A DNA stretch of 11,265 bases from Sulfurimonas sp. (GTDB lineage Bacteria; Campylobacterota; Campylobacteria; Campylobacterales; Sulfurimonadaceae). Below the pieces are notes generated by a model. It worked only from the letters and a program-made list of their open reading frames with translations. It had not been told where the DNA came from and made no database searches. Positions 324 to 11,032 of this stretch are shown piece by piece; position 1 is the first letter of the stretch, and each line of letters starts with the position of its first letter. The stretch spans positions 1 to 11,265 of the forward strand of contig JAESSH010000048.1 in the NCBI GenBank assembly GCA_016764205.1, given 5' to 3'. Position numbers and translations under genes: made by a program.

Positions 324-2557
324 CACAAACTCTTATTGGTCAGATAGATAAAATACTCTTTGAAGAAGAGGGCTTTTTTATTGCAGTATTAAAAAGTGGC
401 GAAAAAGTAAGTGGAACGTATTTTGAGAGTGAAGTAAGTCATATTAAAGATTCGGCTATAACACTAACTGGTGTTTGGGAAGAACATAAAAAATATGGAA
501 AGACTTTTAAATTTACTTCTATTAAAATTAACCAGAATCAACTTTTTTTCTTTTTAAATAAAATTGTAAAAGGCTTCACAAAAAAACTTAGCTCTGAGCT
601 TATAGAGAAGTTTGGGGCAGAGATGCTTATAGAAATTCTGGACAATGATATTGAGCGTCTTTTAGAGTTTAAGGGAATCAAAGAAAAACGTCTAAAAAAG
701 ATTCAAAACTCTTGGAAAAAATTCCGTTCAATGCGAGAGTTAGGAGAGTTTTTAAGTCCTTTTGATGTCTCGCCAATTCTTTTAACAACCATAGCAACGG
801 CTATGAAAGATGTGCAAGACCCATGTACTAAAATTAAAGACAACCCTTATGTACTTACTTCCATAAGCTCTATAGGATTTAAACGTGCTGATGAGTTAGC
901 CCTGAAGATGGGAGTACAAAAGACAGATGAAAATAGAATAGCTTCGGCTATGGATTATGTCTTACTCAATTATTGTGAGCAACAAGGAAACTCTTGTGTT
1001 GCAAAAGATATTTTGTTTAAAGAACTTGATGAACTCCTGATGTTTAGTAATCAAGAGAATTTTTATGAGAGTATTTTAGTACAACGTGTTGCTGAACAAA
1101 ACATAGTTGTAATGAAAAACGATAGACTTTCCCCTGCGAGACTTTACGATGCAGAAAAATTTTTATACGATACCTTTGTTTCTCGCTCAAAGATGGACTC
1201 TGGTGGATATGTTAAAGATATAGATAAGTTTTTAGAAGAATCGGACTTAGTTTTAGGTGAACAACAACGTGAGGCAGTTATGAAAATAAATGAAGGTGCT
1301 TCGATACTTTTTCTTGTAGGATACGCAGGAACAGGAAAAAGTACAACAAGTAAAACAATACTGAATCTTTTAAACACACGCTACGATTCTAAAGAAATAA
1401 TAACCTGTGCACTCAGTGGAATAGCTTCTCAACGTATTTCTGATACAACAGGCTATGAGAGTGCGACTATACAGTCTCTCATCGTTAAACATGAAAAGAG
1501 CGATACCTTTCCTTATGGAGTTGTTCTTATAGATGAGGCCTCTATGATTAACTCTAGCTTGTTTGCTAGGTTTTTAGCCAAAGTAGATAAAAAAGCGATT
1601 TTAATTATTGTTGGAGATGATGCGCAACTTCCTCCTATTGGAGCAGGAAATGTACTGAGTGATGTCCTAACCTTAGAGTTGGCACCAATCGTTAAGCTGA
1701 CTAAAATCTACCGCCAAAGTGAAGGACAAGCAATTACCCTCATAGCAAATGATATTCGCAAGGGGGAAGTACCACAGTATAGACAAAAGTATGATGACTT
1801 TGAGTTTGTGGAGATTAGTTTACAAAATTATTATGGAATGAAAAGTTCTTTAAGTGCGAAAGAGTTACAAGAAAGACGCGAAGAAAATTCTTTAGCAATT
1901 CTTGCTGAGATTACACATAAGGTTGTAGAGTCTATAGAAAAAGCAAGGTACCGACTGAAGAATAAACAAATTAAAGAGTATCTAAATTACTTCCAAGTGA
2001 TAACACCCATGAAAGGGGGCACGCTTGGGACAACAAATCTTAATAAGGTGCTCCAAGAGTATTTTAATCCAAACCCTAAAAAGTGTGTAAAAAGAGGTGA
2101 GACAGAATTTCGTTTGATGGATAAGGTTGTTCATATTAAAAATGAAAATATGACTTCGTGGGGAAGTGATGCTTTTAAGGCAGGAGAAGAGTCCAACCAA
2201 AGACGTATTTTTAATGGAATGAGTGGACTTTTATTTAAAATAGAAGAAGATGATGAACAGGTGTTTGTATTTTATCCAAATGAGGACATCGTTGTTGTGT
2301 ATGAGTATGCGGAGATTAAATCTTACCTCATGTTATCGTACGCCTTAACGATTCATAAGGTTCAAGGGATGGAGTACGATATAGTTGTGATTCCTATGAC
2401 TTTCTCGCACTTTATAATGCACAATACAAAGTTAATTTACACTGCGATAACACGAGCAAAACATAAGTGTATTTTAGTAGGAGAGGGCAATGCCTTTGAG
2501 AGTGGATGCAAAAAGTTTGAAGCAACACGACGTGATACTGTTTTGTTGGAGCTATAA
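320..2557 (+). CDS. recD2: RecD2-type 5'-3' DNA helicase (YrrC family)
   Basis: This 745-residue protein is a superfamily 1B ATP-dependent DNA helicase of the RecD2 type, which works without RecB and RecC and is linked in other bacteria to DNA repair and replication-fork maintenance. The N-terminal 72 residues look like the RecD2 OB fold, with a Y-G-K-T-F strand near residue 60. Helix-hairpin-helix DNA-binding segments follow (around G-I-K-E-K-R-L at 119-125 and S-I-G-F-K-R-A near 185). Helicase motifs are intact: Walker A GYAGTGKS at 334-341, Walker B LIDEAS at 403-408, motif III GDDAQLPP at 432-439, a Y-R-Q-S motif, an SH3-like insert before the final motifs, then TIHKVQG at 677-683 and YTAITRAK at 707-714. 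The length is within the range of known RecD2 proteins (about 700-800). Its ATG overlaps the stop of the preceding gene (ATGA), so translation is probably coupled. Confidence 0.95.
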   Translation: MTQTLIGQIDKILFEEEGFFIAVLKSGEKVSGTYFESEVSHIKDSAITLTGVWEEHKKYGKTFKFTSIKINQNQLFFFLNKIVKGFTKKLSSELIEKFGAEMLIEILDNDIERLLEFKGIKEKRLKKIQNSWKKFRSMRELGEFLSPFDVSPILLTTIATAMKDVQDPCTKIKDNPYVLTSISSIGFKRADELALKMGVQKTDENRIASAMDYVLLNYCEQQGNSCVAKDILFKELDELLMFSNQENFYESILVQRVAEQNIVVMKNDRLSPARLYDAEKFLYDTFVSRSKMDSGGYVKDIDKFLEESDLVLGEQQREAVMKINEGASILFLVGYAGTGKSTTSKTILNLLNTRYDSKEIITCALSGIASQRISDTTGYESATIQSLIVKHEKSDTFPYGVVLIDEASMINSSLFARFLAKVDKKAILIIVGDDAQLPPIGAGNVLSDVLTLELAPIVKLTKIYRQSEGQAITLIANDIRKGEVPQYRQKYDDFEFVEISLQNYYGMKSSLSAKELQERREENSLAILAEITHKVVESIEKARYRLKNKQIKEYLNYFQVITPMKGGTLGTTNLNKVLQEYFNPNPKKCVKRGETEFRLMDKVVHIKNENMTSWGSDAFKAGEESNQRRIFNGMSGLLFKIEEDDEQVFVFYPNEDIVVVYEYAEIKSYLMLSYALTIHKVQGMEYDIVVIPMTFSHFIMHNTKLIYTAITRAKHKCILVGEGNAFESGCKKFEATRRDTVLLEL

Positions 2558-3535
2558 ATTTGCCAATAACTGGGGCAAATCTAAAGTTTTTTTCTTCGCT
2601 CCTATAAGCCAATACGAAACAGATAGTCCAACGATAACTCCTGCAATGATGAGTAACTCTTCAGACCTTTCAGAAGATAAGGAGTAAATAAGTACTTTTC
2701 GTATAAGTGCTGCCATGGCTAGCATAATGAAGGCGGCTATAGCAAAGCCCTTTCCTTGAAGATGATATATTTCTTCTTGAATAAGCTCTATAGATGCCCA
2801 AAGGACAAGTAAACTTCCAAGGACCGTGAGTATTCCTTTTTCTATTCCAATATCAGTAAAGAAAAGTAGATAAATGTCATAAAGAAAAAGACCTATTGCA
2901 AAAAATGCAACAACGACTAATGCTGCTGCTAAAAAGTAGTTAGCATAAGAGTTAAACTTTTTTAACCCAGTTAAAATATTTTTTTCTATCTTAGAGAGTG
3001 ATAAAAACTTACCCAATTCTTCTTCTCTGTATGAGCTGGTGAGTATGTCGAGGTTAATATCTATCATTTTCTCAAAAGCTATAATCTCTTTGAGGTGTTG
3101 TTTTTTATTATCAAAATTTTCTTCTAGGTTACTAATGACAAACATACGAACAAAGGTAAAAGCAGAGTTGACATAGTAGGTCGGTAAGCCAATCTTTACA
3201 TGCACTTCACCGATTTTGTAAAGAGATACAAAGTACTGAGAGTCGTACTTTCCACAAAAGAGATTAACGAACCAAGCCTTAATCTTTGCTCTATGGTACT
3301 CAATGATTTTCTTGTTTTTTAAAAATTGAGCAGTTTTACCAAAGCCCCAAATATAATCGTAAAACTCATCAATAAAATCATCAACAACAGCTTCCATTTG
3401 AGCTTGAAGTACTTTGAGGGTTTCTGCCTCTTCATTTGTAAACTTGTAATGCCCTTTAAGGGTTTGGTAATTATGCTTAATAAAGACCGAACTTGTTGTC
3501 GTCACGTTTATAAAGTACACGTGTTTTATCTTCAT
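2552..3535 (-). CDS. Protoglobin haem sensor fused to a PsiE-like membrane domain
   Basis: Numbered from the ATG at 3535 (327 codons), residues about 28-165 look like a protoglobin or globin-coupled-sensor domain: an F-Y-D-Y-I helix near 58-62, and K-I-G-E-V-H-V-K-I-G-L, where His112 is the probable proximal haem ligand. The C-terminal half has four hydrophobic helices (about 199-221, 233-252, 263-285, 294-312) with short charged loops, resembling the phosphate-starvation-inducible PsiE family. The likely role is inner-membrane sensing of oxygen or another haem ligand; the output is unknown. The start is uncertain. The ATG lies 59 bases inside hpf, GTG codons in frame at 3520 and 3505 shorten that overlap, and none has a strong Shine-Dalgarno. 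There is no in-frame ATG, GTG or TTG between 3505 and the globin domain. Expression is probably coupled to hpf. The stop overlaps the end of the convergent helicase gene by 6 bases. Confidence 0.85.
   Translation of the reverse strand: MKIKHVYFINVTTTSSVFIKHNYQTLKGHYKFTNEEAETLKVLQAQMEAVVDDFIDEFYDYIWGFGKTAQFLKNKKIIEYHRAKIKAWFVNLFCGKYDSQYFVSLYKIGEVHVKIGLPTYYVNSAFTFVRMFVISNLEENFDNKKQHLKEIIAFEKMIDINLDILTSSYREEELGKFLSLSKIEKNILTGLKKFNSYANYFLAAALVVVAFFAIGLFLYDIYLLFFTDIGIEKGILTVLGSLLVLWASIELIQEEIYHLQGKGFAIAAFIMLAMAALIRKVLIYSLSSERSEELLIIAGVIVGLSVSYWLIGAKKKTLDLPQLLANL
2558..2593 (+). terminator. Candidate hairpin terminator between convergent genes
   Basis: A perfect 7-base inverted repeat, ATTTGCC at 2558-2564 and GGCAAAT at 2574-2580, has a 9-base loop and starts immediately after the helicase stop. 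A run of seven T follows at 2587-2593, six bases after the stem. That spacing is longer than in a classic intrinsic terminator and the stem is short, so strength is doubtful. On the minus strand the same hairpin lies inside the last codons of the protoglobin gene and is followed only by TTTATAG, so it could act weakly in both directions. Confidence 0.4.
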
Positions 3536-4073: not shown

Positions 4074-4553
4074 TTAAAGTTTTTGAATACTTCTTCGAAA
4101 ATATCTGATAGGTTCTGATGTGATAGTTGGGTCATTCACACTTACTGTAATATCCATTAAAACTGAGCCATTGGATTGAGGTGTAGTAGTTATTCCATAG
4201 TCAGTACCATCATTATTTGCACCATTGAAACATGTTCCAACACCTAATGTAATATAGAGCATATCAATATTAATAGTATAAATAGTGTTATAGATGAAAT
4301 TTATGTTATCAATAGAACAGGCTGGAACTTGAGATAGTCGTAACATAGCATATTCAGCAGCACTTTGTGAAAGTAAGATGGACTGCTCATAAAGATAAAG
4401 ATCAGTTGTACGTTTAGATGTTTGCGTGCTTAGCGATAAAGACAATGCCATAATGGTAGACATTATTACAATTATAAATAGAGCACCAATCATAGCTATA
4501 CCATTCCTATGAGAGCCTTTAGTATGTGCTAAAAAATTGTTTTTTCTTTGCAT
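4074..4553 (-). CDS. Minor pilin-like protein, MshP/PilX type
   Basis: This 159-residue protein has one N-terminal hydrophobic helix (about 19-43) after a basic leader, with G18-I19 in R-N-G-I-A-M-I-G as the probable prepilin peptidase site. After cleavage position +5 would be Gly, not the Glu found in most pilins. This fits MshP, PilX and GspK-like minor subunits, which often lack it. The helix continues through Q-S-A-A-E-Y-A-M-L-R-L, as in MshP/PilX proteins. C79 and C108 could form a disulfide. It is the last of three pilin genes; its ATG lies 25 bases inside the preceding gene, with GAGG at 4564-4567 spaced 10 bases as a weak ribosome site. Assignment to MshP versus PilX is by helix pattern and operon position. 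Confidence 0.75.
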   Translation of the reverse strand: MQRKNNFLAHTKGSHRNGIAMIGALFIIVIMSTIMALSLSLSTQTSKRTTDLYLYEQSILLSQSAAEYAMLRLSQVPACSIDNINFIYNTIYTINIDMLYITLGVGTCFNGANNDGTDYGITTTPQSNGSVLMDITVSVNDPTITSEPIRYFRRSIQKL

Positions 4554-5458
4554 ATTGCATATACCTCATTCGCAACTAAGTCACTTTTTACACATACTTG
4601 AATCTTAACTAGGGACTCTGAGGCGATAAATCTAAATGAACTTACATTTTCCATGATAATACTAGTGCTTCCATTAAGATCATACCTCTCACCTTTCCAT
4701 GGTCGATAGTTGTACCACATGGTTAGTGTTCCTGTATTTGTCCCTGCATTCCAGTTAGTTATTCCTATCGCATAAGCACTCCATGCTAGTTGAAAATATT
4801 CAGTAGCTTCTACTCCACTTAGATTATTGTCAACACTAACCCCAGTTCCCCAAGAAACAGGTACTAGGTCTGTAGTATTGAATATACTAGCTCTAATAGG
4901 ATGTATTTGAACATCAGATTGAATATCAAATCTACTTGCATTAGCATCCCATCCCCAATCTTCAGCCGTTGTTATTGCATCAGGATGAATAAAATAGATA
5001 GCTGAATCATCTATCCCCGCCTGATTGTTAGATAAATTATTTATAAGAACATTCGAGTCAAAAGTGTTACTAGCAGGTGAGTTGAGATTAACTGTAGTAG
5101 AAGGATTAAGATCTGCAATTCCACTCCAAAGTGGGAGAGCATTACCCCGATACCCATCAATATCTACACCAATCCATTCAAGGGTAGGAGCAGTTGCATT
5201 AAAGTAGTTTGTTAGTAGTGTGTATGAAGCGTTGTTTTCCCTAGCAATAGTAGAAGCTTTAATCCGGTGTTGAAGCCTTGATGCGATAAACTCAACAGCG
5301 GTAGCGCTATTTGTTTGGAGGGTATTGTTTATGGATGAAGAGATGAAACTTTGGTAGGATTGGGCTAAGAATTCAACTCCAAACTTTCCAATAATCCCCA
5401 TAATAACGATGACAAAAACAAGTTCAAGCATGGTAAATGCATGGTGTCTAAATTTCAT
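4529..5458 (-). CDS. Prepilin-type minor pilin, MshO/PilW-like
   Basis: This 309-residue type IV prepilin has a very short leader (MKFRHHA) before F-T-M-L-E-L, so cleavage would be A7-F8 with Glu12 at mature position +5. The hydrophobic helix runs to about residue 30 and continues as an amphipathic helix (about 31-72) containing A-S-R-L-Q-H-R-I-K, as in MshO and PilW. The globular part is Asn- and Ser-rich, with a late cysteine pair (C289, C303). Four extended D/E-x-N-x-S/T sequons occur (N76, N173, N212, N262). The ATG overlaps the preceding stop as ATGA, and AAGGA at 5466-5470 is spaced 7 bases. It probably forms part of the pilus tip or priming complex with its two pilin neighbours and the large surface protein. 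A type II secretion pseudopilin is the alternative, but no gsp-like genes are seen. Confidence 0.85.
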   Translation of the reverse strand: MKFRHHAFTMLELVFVIVIMGIIGKFGVEFLAQSYQSFISSSINNTLQTNSATAVEFIASRLQHRIKASTIARENNASYTLLTNYFNATAPTLEWIGVDIDGYRGNALPLWSGIADLNPSTTVNLNSPASNTFDSNVLINNLSNNQAGIDDSAIYFIHPDAITTAEDWGWDANASRFDIQSDVQIHPIRASIFNTTDLVPVSWGTGVSVDNNLSGVEATEYFQLAWSAYAIGITNWNAGTNTGTLTMWYNYRPWKGERYDLNGSTSIIMENVSSFRFIASESLVKIQVCVKSDLVANEVYAICKEKTIF

Positions 5459-6138
5459 GGAAAAGTCCTTCTATGATACGCGACTTCACCAATATTTGAA
5501 CTATATGTTCGCAACCTTGTTACTTCTTGATTTGTTTGCCTGTCTTGTATAGTTACACTAATCTCTTTTATATTAGTATTGTTAGCAATACCAAAGTCGA
5601 TACAGTCTGCACAAATCTCATCACCTCTTGTTACGGTTAGTCTACTGTTATATTCTTTTTTGTAACCAGTAGCTGAGGTATTTTGTGCAGTACCTGTTAC
5701 TGTGAGACGGTAAGGATGTTCTGCTGCATTTAAAGAGTCTACACAGTCGGTAGCTGTTGGATTATAAAATGGTGCACCTAAATTATTTAGGCATCTTCTA
5801 GTAATATGTCCCAGTCTTCTCATAATAGGATCACCATTTGCATCATTAATACCAGAGTTGAAACATGGTGCGGAAAAATGGTTTATAACCCTTGATAGTT
5901 CATCACCGGACATATTTGCATCTAAGAGTGAAGCCTCATCCCAAGTGTATGTTGTTGCTATATTTATCTCAGAAATAGCCGAAAATATAGCCTCTTGCGC
6001 TAAGTTGTTTTCCATGTTACTTGAAGTTACCTGTGTAACCATAGGTAGAGAGAGTACAGAGATAGATATAATTACAATAGCAAAAATGAGTTCTATAAGA
6101 GTAAAAGCATATCTACTAAGATGTGTTCTTCTTACCAC
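5455..6138 (-). CDS. Prepilin-type minor pilin, MshD/PilV-like
   Basis: This 227-residue prepilin has leader M-V-R-R-T-H-L-S-R-Y-A and then F-T-L-I-E-L-I-F-A-I, giving cleavage at A11-F12 and Glu16 at mature +5. The helix runs to about residue 34. Five cysteines follow (C92, C116, C132, C176, C179), the last two as a C-A-D-C motif, unusual in a minor pilin and echoed by C-L-E-C in the large surface protein. One extended sequon is at N75. The start is GTG at 6136-6138: AGGAGA at 6144-6149 is spaced 5 bases, and no ATG is available in frame before the leader. It overlaps the end of the large gene by 7 bases. First of three consecutive minor pilin genes whose order matches mshD-mshO-mshP. Confidence 0.85.
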   Translation of the reverse strand: MVRRTHLSRYAFTLIELIFAIVIISISVLSLPMVTQVTSSNMENNLAQEAIFSAISEINIATTYTWDEASLLDANMSGDELSRVINHFSAPCFNSGINDANGDPIMRRLGHITRRCLNNLGAPFYNPTATDCVDSLNAAEHPYRLTVTGTAQNTSATGYKKEYNSRLTVTRGDEICADCIDFGIANNTNIKEISVTIQDRQTNQEVTRLRTYSSNIGEVAYHRRTFP

Positions 6139-9100
6139 ATAATTCTCCTATTTACTCTTTTTACTCTATCTGTTGTAGTCTTGCTATCGGCTTCATGATC
6201 ACCGCTCCATTCAGTTTGTCTTCTAAAGATTACAGTATGGTTGTTTAATACGGCTGAGGCATTGTTCTCATCATACACAAGCCATTCGGAAACATTATCA
6301 TCCATAACAGCTGTATAGGGTAAGCCATTGGCTATTTGGTAGCTATGTTGTGAATTAAGAGTATAATTATTTGCATAATTAATTCCATTGGGAAGATAAG
6401 TATTACCGCTGTAGTAAGAATCTGTGCTTGAGTTAAGGTCACCATAATTAGAAATATTATGATCAAGACTCATAAACCACCTTGTATCAGTTTTTTGTTG
6501 CGTATTCCCATTTGCATCTCTTGGTAAAAGTGCTGGACTACAAACATTTCCATTAAGTACCCCGTTACAAAAGACTTCATAATAAAGAAAGACATCTGGC
6601 TCGGTACCACCAGAGGTACAGTTTGCAACAGCCGAGTCACAAATGATTGTTGTTCTTTTACCAGCAGTTCTAGCATAGAAGTGCGTAACATCAAGATTCT
6701 GTGTTGCTGATTTGTTTATATCACTAGAGCCATTTGTGAAATTGCCTGGGTTTAAGTCAGCGGTAAAAGTATTGTTTGAGTCTTGGACATTGTATCTAAG
6801 AAAAGTTATTTGTTCAGGATTTGCAGTTGCATTTACCTCTCTTGCATAGTTTAACCTCGTTGTTGTATCAAGGCTTCCCCCCATATTTCGTGGAAAATAA
6901 CCAGCAGTAGTTGTAATGTGTATATCTCTGTTAACTCCAACAGGAATAGAACTGTTAATCTCAGGGGTATCTAGTAGTTTTTGTCTTGTTAAATTATAGT
7001 CATTAAAATTGTATTGATGTATAAGTTGTGTACTGATTGTATTTGATTTACTAATGTTTATATCTAAAGCTTGTGCATAACAGCCTGTAACATAATTACT
7101 AAGTGCTGTTGGCGTATTTTTTCCTCGAGCAGTTATCATAGTGTTGATTTGAACGGACATGTTTTCATCATCAGACATATTGGCCATATAAATAAAGGCA
7201 TTGTTTACAGGGGGTGTTATATGACCTTGACCTAGGGTTACCCCTGTATTTACTGTAAACATATAAGGATGAAATCGAACATCTAAATCATTATAAACAA
7301 AATTATTATTGCTGTTTATATGATTTGAACTAATTTCACATCCATTTTTTGTAGATGAATTTATATCTTGTGTATCCGCATTGTTTTGGATACAGTCCGC
7401 AGTATTAGTGAAGTAGCTACTCGTTGTATGATGAATCATAGACAATGAAGTTGGGTCATTGTCTACATTTGTCCATGACTTATCAGTTAGGTTTAGTCTG
7501 TACTCACCAACTTGGTTTACTGATGTGTTTTCATCAACTTTCCCATTTACAAAGCGTACCGATACAGCCTGACTGCTTTCATCACAAGCCCCAGCTGTAA
7601 TAGCTATTGTTGGAGACCAGGTGTATTGGATATTTTCGTCGCTGGATGTAGAACTGAATGGTTTTGTATATCCATCTGAAGCGGTATTATTTACAAAGTT
7701 ACTAGCGTTGACTTCAACATTATAATTGTACGTAGATGCTACATGCAAGGTAGGAGGATTAGCCCCAACTACACCAGAGAAACCAGTTGTTAGTCTGGTT
7801 TGTATGAAGTTGTTATTTTCATCTTGATCATCGATATTTATTAAAAATGCTTCAGGACGTATGGCAAAATTGTCCCTTGAACAAATTTGTTTTATGTTTG
7901 AACCGTAAATACACTCTAAGCATCTATTTACTTCTCTTTGTGTCATTGCTGATGGAGCATTACTACTCGCGTTACCACATGATTGCGGAACTTGAGTATA
8001 TTTGCGTATTTGACCATTATCCTCTTCATAAAATACATCAGATGCACAAGTCTGTCCGGCATAATCTGGAAAATCTTCTAAATTAAAACGTCCTGAATTA
8101 GGAGCAGTTTCTGTAATGAGAATATTGCTGTTGTTATTATCAAGGGGGTAACTGATTCTAAATGCTGTGTTTTCTCTCGCTGTTTCATAAAACTCTATTG
8201 CAGCATTTGGATTTTTTACTAATTGATTATTAATAATATCAGCTGCTGTAAAAGTTGAAGTATTCCCTGTAATATTAATCCAAACCTTGTCATTAATAGC
8301 ACTCGATTTTTCTTGGCAGGAGGTCTCGCTTTCATGAAAAGCGGAGGAGTCAATAAGCTCTATGCCTACTGTAGTATTTATATCTTGGAGTGTATTTAAG
8401 TCATTTGGATCTGTTGCAATAAGCCTAAATGTTTCAGCTCTGGAAGTAACTTGCGTTGGAAGGTTATAGTAATACCCAGAACTTAAAAAAGGATTCTGAT
8501 AGGTATTATGTACTAGATTAAACATACCTTCTACTGGTGTATATATGAAGTTAGCATGAGTACATATGTCCATATTCACTCCGGGTTGCAAGGAATAAGG
8601 AACAACTGTACCATCTAGAACTAGATTATAATCTATCTGAATATTTAAAGGAGTCTGAACATAAGAATCTTGAGGAGTTACTTGATAATAAATATAAACA
8701 GAATCTTTTGCATCTATGGTTCCCACGTCGATGTCCTGAATGGACTCTGGATTAGAACCTATTGAGACATTTAAGTCACTATCTAAAATTGATGTAGCCG
8801 AGGAACTATTTCTGGCAAGTTTAACAGTGTTTTCTTTATACCGTATTTGTGATGTGTTTATATCTAGTATATTAACTTTGAAGTCACTCACGGTAACGTC
8901 TGAGTCTTCAAGGTTTTTTATAAATAAACTTACTTCTATCTCTTCACCAGTAACTACATCTCCCGTCAATGTAGGAAAGGCAGTTCCATTATTATCTTCT
9001 GTAAAATAGCGCCCTTGTTGTTTGTATGCATAGTCGTAACAGAACTCTGGTTCATACAGTTCTGTGGAAAATGCAAAAAGCCCTGGAAATATTTGATCCC

Positions 9101-10016
9101 ATGTGCCATTGTCTGGTTCAGTGATTGTTACTGTTGTTGTTGCTTGAAATGTTTCAATAATTGCTGGACTTCCATCGGGCGTGCCAATAAAGAATGTATC
9201 GATATCGACTCCAATAGTATTAGTACAGTTAGGACTTCTTGTTGTGACATCTATTCCATCGATTTGAATACTAGAGTTAAAAATATTATTTCCCAAGGAA
9301 TGAGCTGTGCCACTTTTATCAGTGATGGTAACGGAATCATTTCTTCCTATATCTCCTTCTCCTCCAAAAATTAGAAACTTAGCATTGACAGGTTCGCTTT
9401 TTGATGTTAAAAATCCATTTAATATAGAACCTATAGTTCCACCTTTAATAGTTGATTTAAATCCATCGAAAAGAGTAATATTTCTTGCTTTTGAGTTAGC
9501 GTCTAAGTAAATAACTACCAATGCCCATGCTCCAAAACTATTTGTAGATGTCGCTGCTTGAATGTCTGCAACCCATACTTCACCATTATAACCTGTCTCC
9601 TGGATTACACTGGTACTTTCATTATTGATGGCATCTGTTATGTTAGCAGTTATATTAACAAAACCTTGGTAGTCATTGTACGGTCCAAACCCAGGGGCAG
9701 TGTCAAATCCATAATAAAAATTACTTGTATTAGACGTTAGAGTAGTATAACTTGTAGTATTGGATGTTTTAAGTTTAATATTTTGTGCACTTACAGGCAT
9801 AGTTGCATTGTTCGTATTGATAAACCTTCCTTGCCAATATAAACCGGCAAATAGTACTTTATTAACTCCGGGTGGAAGAATAAGTTGTGACATTGTAGAA
9901 TTAACTGTTGTACTATCACTATCCATGTCAGCAAATACCATGTTTACACTACTGTTATTAATTGTTGCTCCAACACAAGTTGAATCTGGTCCAAGCATAA
10001 TTGAATTACCAATCAT
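6132..10016 (-). CDS. Giant secreted surface protein, MshQ-like, pilus operon
   Basis: Numbered from the first ATG (1294 codons), the N-terminal part (about 1-320) resembles the shared head of large bacterial surface proteins: G-D-I-S-M-I-G-N-S straddling the ATG, V-L-F-A-G-L-Y-W-Q-G at 54-63, then G-A-W-A-L-V-V-I-Y and N-I-T-L-F-D-G-F at 162-186. A Cys-rich middle contains C-L-E-C (699-702) and C-S-R-D-N-F-A-I-R-P (712-721). The R-F-H-P-Y-M-F segment at 914-920 also recalls MshQ/DUF6701-type pilus proteins. It is rich in Asn, Ser and Thr, has 18 cysteines and 19 extended N-glycosylation sequons. No von Willebrand A domain or PilY1 propeller is evident. As it heads an operon with three minor pilins, a pilus-tip or pilus-associated adhesin is the best inference. 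The true start is almost certainly upstream, since an in-frame signal peptide lies at 10017-10160. Confidence 0.82.
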   Translation of the reverse strand: MIGNSIMLGPDSTCVGATINNSSVNMVFADMDSDSTTVNSTMSQLILPPGVNKVLFAGLYWQGRFINTNNATMPVSAQNIKLKTSNTTSYTTLTSNTSNFYYGFDTAPGFGPYNDYQGFVNITANITDAINNESTSVIQETGYNGEVWVADIQAATSTNSFGAWALVVIYLDANSKARNITLFDGFKSTIKGGTIGSILNGFLTSKSEPVNAKFLIFGGEGDIGRNDSVTITDKSGTAHSLGNNIFNSSIQIDGIDVTTRSPNCTNTIGVDIDTFFIGTPDGSPAIIETFQATTTVTITEPDNGTWDQIFPGLFAFSTELYEPEFCYDYAYKQQGRYFTEDNNGTAFPTLTGDVVTGEEIEVSLFIKNLEDSDVTVSDFKVNILDINTSQIRYKENTVKLARNSSSATSILDSDLNVSIGSNPESIQDIDVGTIDAKDSVYIYYQVTPQDSYVQTPLNIQIDYNLVLDGTVVPYSLQPGVNMDICTHANFIYTPVEGMFNLVHNTYQNPFLSSGYYYNLPTQVTSRAETFRLIATDPNDLNTLQDINTTVGIELIDSSAFHESETSCQEKSSAINDKVWINITGNTSTFTAADIINNQLVKNPNAAIEFYETARENTAFRISYPLDNNNSNILITETAPNSGRFNLEDFPDYAGQTCASDVFYEEDNGQIRKYTQVPQSCGNASSNAPSAMTQREVNRCLECIYGSNIKQICSRDNFAIRPEAFLINIDDQDENNNFIQTRLTTGFSGVVGANPPTLHVASTYNYNVEVNASNFVNNTASDGYTKPFSSTSSDENIQYTWSPTIAITAGACDESSQAVSVRFVNGKVDENTSVNQVGEYRLNLTDKSWTNVDNDPTSLSMIHHTTSSYFTNTADCIQNNADTQDINSSTKNGCEISSNHINSNNNFVYNDLDVRFHPYMFTVNTGVTLGQGHITPPVNNAFIYMANMSDDENMSVQINTMITARGKNTPTALSNYVTGCYAQALDINISKSNTISTQLIHQYNFNDYNLTRQKLLDTPEINSSIPVGVNRDIHITTTAGYFPRNMGGSLDTTTRLNYAREVNATANPEQITFLRYNVQDSNNTFTADLNPGNFTNGSSDINKSATQNLDVTHFYARTAGKRTTIICDSAVANCTSGGTEPDVFLYYEVFCNGVLNGNVCSPALLPRDANGNTQQKTDTRWFMSLDHNISNYGDLNSSTDSYYSGNTYLPNGINYANNYTLNSQHSYQIANGLPYTAVMDDNVSEWLVYDENNASAVLNNHTVIFRRQTEWSGDHEADSKTTTDRVKRVNRRIMW

Positions 10017-10160
10017 ACTAATATCACCATAAATAGTGTAAGCTTTTTTTAGTGAAAATTCTTTATAATTATCTGCTGCATAGAGATTAGAATGGTGTGG
10101 TGAAAATGAGAAGAGTATAGTAAATATTTGTAAGCAACATAGTTTTTTTAATAAAGGGAT
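10017..10160 (-). other. In-frame signal-peptide extension lacking a standard start codon
   Basis: Reading upstream of the ATG at 10016 in the same frame gives 48 further codons with no stop. From ATC at 10160 they read I-P-L-L-K-K, then a hydrophobic core (L-C-C-L-Q-I-F-T-I-L-F-S-F), then a polar region ending N-L-Y-A, with probable cleavage before A-D-N-Y-K. This is a standard Sec signal peptide of about 28 residues. GAGGAG at 10167-10172 is spaced 6 bases before the ATC. The frame continues open to a TAG at 10200-10202 but contains no ATG, GTG or TTG upstream of 10016. Either initiation uses ATC, or an ATG to ATC change has damaged the start, or a base is missing: one extra base between 10151 and 10171 would join the ATG at 10174 to this frame. 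Confidence 0.68.
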
Positions 10161-10164
10161 AACA

Positions 10165-10201
10165 AACTCCTCATAAAAACTGTATATAAAGATAAGGAGC
10201 T
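10165..10201 (-). promoter_or_regulatory. Leader hairpin covering the Shine-Dalgarno of the surface-protein gene
   Basis: In the minus-strand transcript AGCTCCTTAT (10201-10192) can pair along its full length with ATGAGGAGTT (10174-10165), ten pairs including two G-U wobbles, around a 17-base loop. The paired arm contains the GAGGAG ribosome site and the nearby ATG at 10174. This could limit translation of the large surface gene, for example by temperature or a binding factor. The pairing is visible in the sequence; any regulatory role is inference. Confidence 0.42.
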
Positions 10202-10210
10202 AAACAGTTA

Positions 10211-10295: not shown

Positions 10296-10583
10296 ATGAG
10301 ATTAAGTAAACACTCTATTGAGTCTATTAAAACCGTTTTTCAAATTGTTTTTAAGGAAGGAAATATTTATCTTTTTGGAAGTCGCACAGATGACACGAAA
10401 AAAGGTGGTGATATTGACCTTTACATTGAAGTGCAAGACAAAACTGATTTGTTTGAGAAAAAGATAAAATTTCTTGCAAGGCTAAAACAAAAAATACAAG
10501 ACCAAAAAATAGATGTAGTTTTTAATGAAGATGCTACAAGACTAATAGAAAAAGAGGCAAAAAAATGGGCGATAGCTATTTAG
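10296..10583 (+). CDS. mntA: MntA-type minimal nucleotidyltransferase, antitoxin of HEPN/MNT module
   Basis: This 95-residue protein is a minimal nucleotidyltransferase. In characterised HepT-MntA pairs the MNT protein neutralises its partner by transferring AMP groups to a tyrosine. The catalytic motif is visible as L-F-G-S-R (S29) followed by G-G-D-I-D-L, with Asp39 and Asp41 as metal ligands. The third acidic residue is probably Asp73 in K-I-D-V-V-F. Spacing between G-S and D-x-D is nine residues, one fewer than the usual GSx10DxD. The ATG at 10296 was chosen because the domain starts immediately after it; a TTG at 10218 would add 26 hydrophobic, Cys-rich residues and place the promoter inside the gene. 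There is no Shine-Dalgarno, and the -10 suggests a leaderless mRNA. It overlaps hepT by 19 bases. Confidence 0.86.
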   Translation: MRLSKHSIESIKTVFQIVFKEGNIYLFGSRTDDTKKGGDIDLYIEVQDKTDLFEKKIKFLARLKQKIQDQKIDVVFNEDATRLIEKEAKKWAIAI

Positions 10584-11032
10584 TATATCAAAAAAAATTT
10601 ACTAAAGCATTGAGTGAATCAAAAATGCACGTGCAAAGGATTAATGAAGCCTTTATAGAATTGGAAAAAAACTATACATTTCCTATAGAGGTAAAAGAGT
10701 TTGAGACATTAGTTACAAGTAAAACTACCTTAGCGTTTGCAGACCAAATTATCTACAGATTTGCAAAGGCACAAGATAGTATGGGAGCAAAACTTTTTAA
10801 GGCATATATGTTGGTGCAAGGCACGAATGTGGATAAGCCTTTTTTAGATATACTTAATTCCCTTGAAAAACTGGACATTTTAAATGTAGATGAATGGTTT
10901 GAATTACGTGAAATTAGAAATGAAATTGCACATGATTATGAGGACAATAAAGACTTAGCTATGAATATTTTAAACAGTATATTTAAGCATAAAAAAGAAC
11001 TCGAAAACATCTTAAAAGCCTTTACAAAATAA
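10565..11032 (+). CDS. hepT: HepT-type HEPN ribonuclease toxin
   Basis: This 155-residue, all-helical protein looks like the HEPN toxin of an MNT/HEPN pair, a metal-independent RNase family. The active-site motif is complete: R118-N-E-I-A-H123-D-Y125, fitting R-x4-H-x-Y, where Arg and His are catalytic and the Tyr is the residue AMPylated by MntA in characterised systems. The helix before it (D60 to about K79) has the Y-R-F-A-K-A-Q-D pattern common in this group. The ATG at 10565 has AGAGG at 10553-10557 spaced 7 bases and lies inside the end of mntA, so the two are translated together, antitoxin first. A 'nucleotidyltransferase substrate-binding protein' label is the alternative name for related HEPN partners. 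No truncation is seen, so the module appears intact. The stop is 2 bases from the convergent fliW stop. Confidence 0.86.
   Translation: MGDSYLVYQKKFTKALSESKMHVQRINEAFIELEKNYTFPIEVKEFETLVTSKTTLAFADQIIYRFAKAQDSMGAKLFKAYMLVQGTNVDKPFLDILNSLEKLDILNVDEWFELREIRNEIAHDYEDNKDLAMNILNSIFKHKKELENILKAFTK

Follow-up and report, generated by a model that had tools for sequence, protein, structure and literature searches.

The window (the whole stretch analysed here, 11,265 nucleotides of a Sulfurimonas sp. contig) carries a gene for a large predicted surface protein, adjoined by co-directional pseudopilin genes in an arrangement kept in the five loci compared. Its relevant features are:

6132 to 10160, minus strand: gene for a large predicted surface protein, 1342 codons if ATC at 10160 is the start; relatives found
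10158 to 10160, minus strand: ATC at the position of the relatives' start codon, aligned to the ATG of G020, G048 and G128
10167 to 10172, minus strand: Shine-Dalgarno sequence GAGGAG, 6 nt 5′ of the ATC (relatives usually 5–8 nt)
10014 to 10016, minus strand: first in-frame ATG (residue 49), where the database protein P0001 (1294 aa) begins
10148 to 10174, minus strand: short open reading frame of eight sense codons, its ATG overlapping the Shine-Dalgarno sequence; probably fortuitous
10077 to 10160, minus strand: signal-peptide-like segment (residues 1–28; model helix 2–18), with a putative cleavage, placed by eye, between LYA and AD
10165 to 10201, minus strand: predicted hairpin, AGCUCCUUAU with AUGAGGAGUU, pairing the Shine-Dalgarno sequence; fold energy not unusual (z −0.34)
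5455 to 6138, minus strand: pseudopilin 1 with N_methyl motif; overlaps the large gene at its end
4529 to 5458, minus strand: pseudopilin 2 with prepilin motif (TIGR02532 above cut-off, Pfam N_methyl below)
4074 to 4553, minus strand: small protein, third of the set; its start is weakly GspK-like (below cut-off)

Five genomes are nearest to the window by RecD2 identity (in order G128, G020, G055, G118 and G048). Three of them, G128, G020 and G048 (92, 89 and 85% identity), share the order fliW, large gene, three pseudopilin genes, HPF and RecD2, and fliW lies nearby in four of the five compared loci. In the window a nucleotidyltransferase and HEPN-type substrate-binding pair (10296–11032, plus strand; MntA/HI0074-like, below family cut-offs) sits between fliW and the large gene; the pair is unmatched in the five relatives' loci, where L256 and L257 end near or before this place or are without fliW. 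A gene at 2552–3535 (minus strand), coding for a protoglobin domain fused to a PsiE-family membrane domain, overlaps the end of the HPF gene, and its product has no match among the five compared relatives' loci.

The N-terminal domain of the large protein is matched in 58 of 135 genomes of the genus, 113 of 228 of the family and 141 of 398 of the order (E ≤ 1e-5), and named database matches of the protein include several Sulfurimonas records. G128 is itself one of the genus-level genomes, a set taken around a Sulfurimonas locus. Minor-pilin operons of type IV pilus and type II secretion systems can include a large partner such as PilY1 or MshQ, and the window resembles them in that three pseudopilin-like genes, overlapping or closely spaced, come after the gene of a large protein with a signal peptide. 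It differs in that the large protein matches no Pfam or NCBIfam family above cut-off, those of PilY1 and MshQ included; a fold search with the structure model gave nothing informative. What is seen is a beta-rich domain behind a predicted signal peptide, with pseudopilin genes running in the same direction, and the name 'adhesin' is an unproven guess.

Read on the minus strand, the frame of the large gene is open from 10199 to 6132 and is preceded by a TAG at 10202–10200. The first-pass annotation had it open to 10202 with no ATG, GTG or TTG upstream of the ATG at 10016; no such codon in fact lies between the TAG and that ATG, but the opening is at 10199, positions 10202–10200 being the stop. 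The Shine-Dalgarno sequence is where that annotation had placed it, GAGGAG occupying 10172–10167 and a spacer TTTGTT occupying 10166–10161, directly before the ATC. The 1342-codon frame has no internal stop, so the gene is not a pseudogene by the mark of a broken frame; single substitutions at 484 places could turn its codons into stops, and none is present. The window's other genes are also unbroken. No further copy of the window gene was found, P0001 being a single-member cluster from one contig. The gene thus has the marks of an AUH start (AUU, AUC or AUA), namely a Shine-Dalgarno sequence at normal distance and no canonical codon before the conserved N-terminus. Such starts are an established rare class in which AUU and AUA are known and AUC is rarer.

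Upstream of the ATG at 10016, 48 codons specify a stretch resembling a signal peptide, followed by the beginning of the conserved domain. From 10160 to 10016 the translation reads IPLLKKLCCLQIFTILFSFSPHHSNLYA and then, past the putative cleavage site (judged by eye), ADNYKEFSLKKAYTIYGDIS. A start at 10016 would therefore drop the signal peptide, as had been proposed, and it would split the G-D-I-S-M-I-G-N segment, which is conserved in a 17-row alignment (A1). The predicted structure of the large protein (399 residues modelled, mean pLDDT 80, 17 sequences) has a helix at residues 2–18 and its first beta strand at residues 33–53. Because the database start, residue 49, falls within this strand, the N-terminus given in the database is very unlikely on the model. 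The true start region of the large gene is at 10160, not 10016, and the deposited 1294-aa protein is one without its predicted signal peptide.

The start codon was then read in relatives, the orthologue alignment that the first-pass annotation had called for. In a DNA alignment with G128, G020 and G048, the ATG of all three relatives shares a column with the window ATC. Of the three leaders, that of G020 can be matched closely to the window starting some 100 nt upstream, whereas the match of the G048 and G128 leaders is looser; in G048 the ribosome site and spacer are identical to those of the window (GGAGTTTGTT) and are followed by ATG. Because ATG stands in the same column in three close syntenic genomes, the ancestral start is best read as an AUG at 10160 whose third base has since changed. 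The relatives begin at this position, 6 nt after GGAG, which contradicts the earlier suggestion that a one-base loss had separated the ATG at 10174 from the signal peptide. The open reading frame from that ATG does end, as described, after eight sense codons, at a TAA (10150–10148). Since the relatives start at the ATC-aligned position and one of them, L012, has a similar ATG overlapping its ribosome site that was not chosen as gene start, the ATG at 10174 looks fortuitous.

Regions for a family-wide count were the loci returned by the searches and 40 further ones from the order-level matching genomes (141 of 398). They gave 165 open reading frames, of which 152 had readable starts and 150 were distinct (L087 and L130 are the same gene; L142 and L144 have identical start regions). 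Left out were 10 frames cut by a contig or fetched end, two downstream fragments of L049, and L153. Starts in relatives were picked by a script that combines a ribosome site with a hydrophobic stretch, five having no recognised ribosome site, and Shine-Dalgarno spacing was mostly 5–8 nt. With the window included, the 150 starts comprise 142 ATG, 4 GTG, 2 TTG and two that are none of these: the window ATC and an ATA in one other lineage. AUC is thus not conserved among orthologues, 148 of the 150 distinct starts being canonical. All 148 lie upstream of the domain, and a signal peptide is present in the proteins compared; no orthologue that starts at 10016 and lacks one, a finding that would have spoken for the database call, was seen.

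Among 471 non-overlapping neighbouring control genes, no non-canonical start was accepted. One control row flagged as such (L194) was rejected because an ATG of its own lies at residue 14, and six flagged in an earlier control of 546 flanking open reading frames were all judged spurious (antisense frames, single votes, or an own ATG nearby). The family excess of AUH starts is not significant (2/150 versus 0/471, Fisher p = 0.058). Since the window was selected for this trait, the unbiased count is 1/149, for which p = 0.24, and we claim no AUH excess.

The second non-canonical lineage, G063 (L027, the same as L033), reads GGAG-TATATT-ATA where its relative L034 has GGGG-TACATT-ATG, and the upstream DNA of the two can be aligned. 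The large-gene frame of G063 is intact over 1346 codons, and its first canonical codon lies 82 residues further on. Against L034, the first 83 aligned codons give dN 0.23 and dS 0.57 (whole gene: dN 0.34, dS 1.26), values that fit purifying selection on the stretch before the canonical codon. A database protein from a contig of different length (P0091, standing for a cluster of 69 sequences) differs from the G063 protein at 5 of 1264 residues and begins at the same downstream ATG, which is consistent with a non-canonical upstream start there too, possibly the same ATA.

The leader of the window gene has a further peculiarity. Its ribosome site is predicted to pair with the leader segment of the hairpin listed above, giving an accessibility of 0.02; only 2 of 147 clean relatives have a lower value. 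An earlier impression that this pairing was near-unique (1 of 152 lower) was dropped, since in the clean set two are lower, several are close and the fold energy is ordinary. Taken by itself, the predicted pairing argues for an almost silent gene; together with the AUC it points to low output.

As a separate observation, a GAG[CT]CC motif lies 30–70 nt 5′ of the start in 55 of 144 distinct large-gene leaders, mostly followed by GTGC 8–9 nt on (consensus GAGCCCtgtTttTg-GTGCa, 55 rows). In 20 genomes the pattern had 10 matches, six of them in the large-gene leader by coordinates (G068 via identical sequence). No consensus RNA structure was found for the motif, and the window copy, at about 10179–10203, is eroded.

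The two explanations put forward first, rare AUC initiation and an attenuating start-codon change, remain the leading ones now that the ATC is aligned with ATG. The reading that we favour, as somewhat more probable than all else, is that AUC at 10160 initiates inefficiently and that the pseudopilin operon is led by an attenuated allele. An ancestral AUG would have been altered at its third base with no damage to the Shine-Dalgarno sequence, its 6-nt distance from the start, the signal peptide or the frame of 1342 codons; guided by the well-placed GAGGAG, the initiator tRNA would go on initiating at AUC, though infrequently, and small amounts of full-length exported protein would result. The evidence for this explanation is the alignment of ATC with ATG, the 148 canonical starts among 150, the signal peptide that is lost when the protein is begun at 10016, and the second lineage with its ATA. 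Against use of the codon stands the weaker match of AUC to the initiator, compared with that of AUG. We infer that the AUC is probably used, with low yield, and that the large protein may reach the surface and work with the three co-directional pseudopilins; the cell probably makes it weakly, if at all.

Ranked second, and distinctly less likely, is a silenced allele, in which a recent loss-of-function change of the start has struck a surface gene that is dispensable and quick to diverge, and practically no protein is produced. The divergence itself is plain: between the window and G128 the large protein is 43% identical (C-terminal part) whereas RecD2 is 92% identical, and across 4074–10160 the large gene and pseudopilins are 39–54% identical as against 86–92% for the flanking HPF and RecD2, suggesting that the operon has either diverged much faster or been exchanged. 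Surface proteins often diverge fast. The family also shows other lesions, and these, like the predicted pairing of the window ribosome site, would agree with silencing. Large-gene copies broken by stops or frameshifts are L024 (G129:C28), L025 (G023:C5) and L049 (G128:C2, from the window's closest relative), or 3 of 33 genes with a stop inside the fetched DNA, a subset enriched in short frames; in L153 (G153:C7) the leader motif runs directly into the end of the signal peptide at 240–300, either a deletion or an assembly artefact having taken away the start together with most of that peptide. In the window, by comparison, everything but the start is intact, including the 48 codons before the next ATG. 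A random inactivating hit would far more likely have fallen on one of the 484 nonsense positions than on one of the three third-base changes of the start, and the G063 lineage has the same class of change in an intact gene.

The third possibility, which we consider improbable, is that the C at 10158 is a wrong call or reflects a strain mixture in the metagenome contig and that the real start is canonical. The contig is the only one to carry this protein, and the relatives do have ATG. Yet the unbroken window genes indicate good sequence quality, a single error hitting the start codon is unlikely a priori in a window of 11 kb, and the ATA of G063, with its fitting second protein record, shows that such starts occur in the family. 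Very improbable indeed is a route in which ribosomes that have entered the short open reading frame at 10174 (overlapping the ATC and ending at 10148) reach the signal-peptide frame through frameshifting or re-initiation, since this needs a −1 shift where TCC-CTT-TAT-TAA offers no standard slippery heptamer (by eye) and the ATG lacks a ribosome site of its own, overlapping the Shine-Dalgarno sequence as in L012.

An extension of weak initiation at AUC, offered as speculation and given little probability, is that the start codon of this operon repeatedly undergoes third-base changes (AUG to AUC or AUA), which are retained as a dial on expression of the large pseudopilus-associated surface protein. 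The hairpin hiding the ribosome site in the window would then help to keep translation nearly off, a state that a regulator (fliW being a neighbour) or growth conditions could relieve.

Initiation at such codons has been measured elsewhere. In Staphylococcus aureus (PMC13009471), AUU and AUA starts with strong ribosome sites give about 10% of the AUG yield in poor medium and, for one gene, up to 30% in rich medium. The genes concerned, infC, ccpN, cvfC1 and citZ, resemble the window gene in having a third-base variant of AUG with a Shine-Dalgarno sequence at a working distance. Initiation was experimentally shown there, with lowered reporter yield, whereas at the window AUC it is predicted. 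The S. aureus codons are also mostly conserved among relatives, in contrast to the window AUC, which is absent from the relatives read, and they belong to regulators and enzymes instead of a predicted exported giant protein (PMC13009471). In Borrelia burgdorferi, pncA (bbe22) has an AUU start skipped by gene callers and a truncated database protein, as in the window; the fold depends on the N-terminus that is left out, and databases still miss this start (PMC13398362). That case differs in that the codon is AUU, not AUC, and in that expression and structure were proven (PMC13398362). For Salmonella, one AUU is reported among 26 new start sites (PMC11005335). No bacterial gene with an AUC start came up among the literature entries listed, which is no proof of absence.

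If the AUC is used, the window gene would be a candidate natural bacterial AUC start. The case shows how gene callers can strip signal peptides from surface proteins, so that the predicted localisation is wrong. Were the AUC used, the gene would also offer a simple model for expression tuning through start-codon drift in a fast-diverging surface gene.
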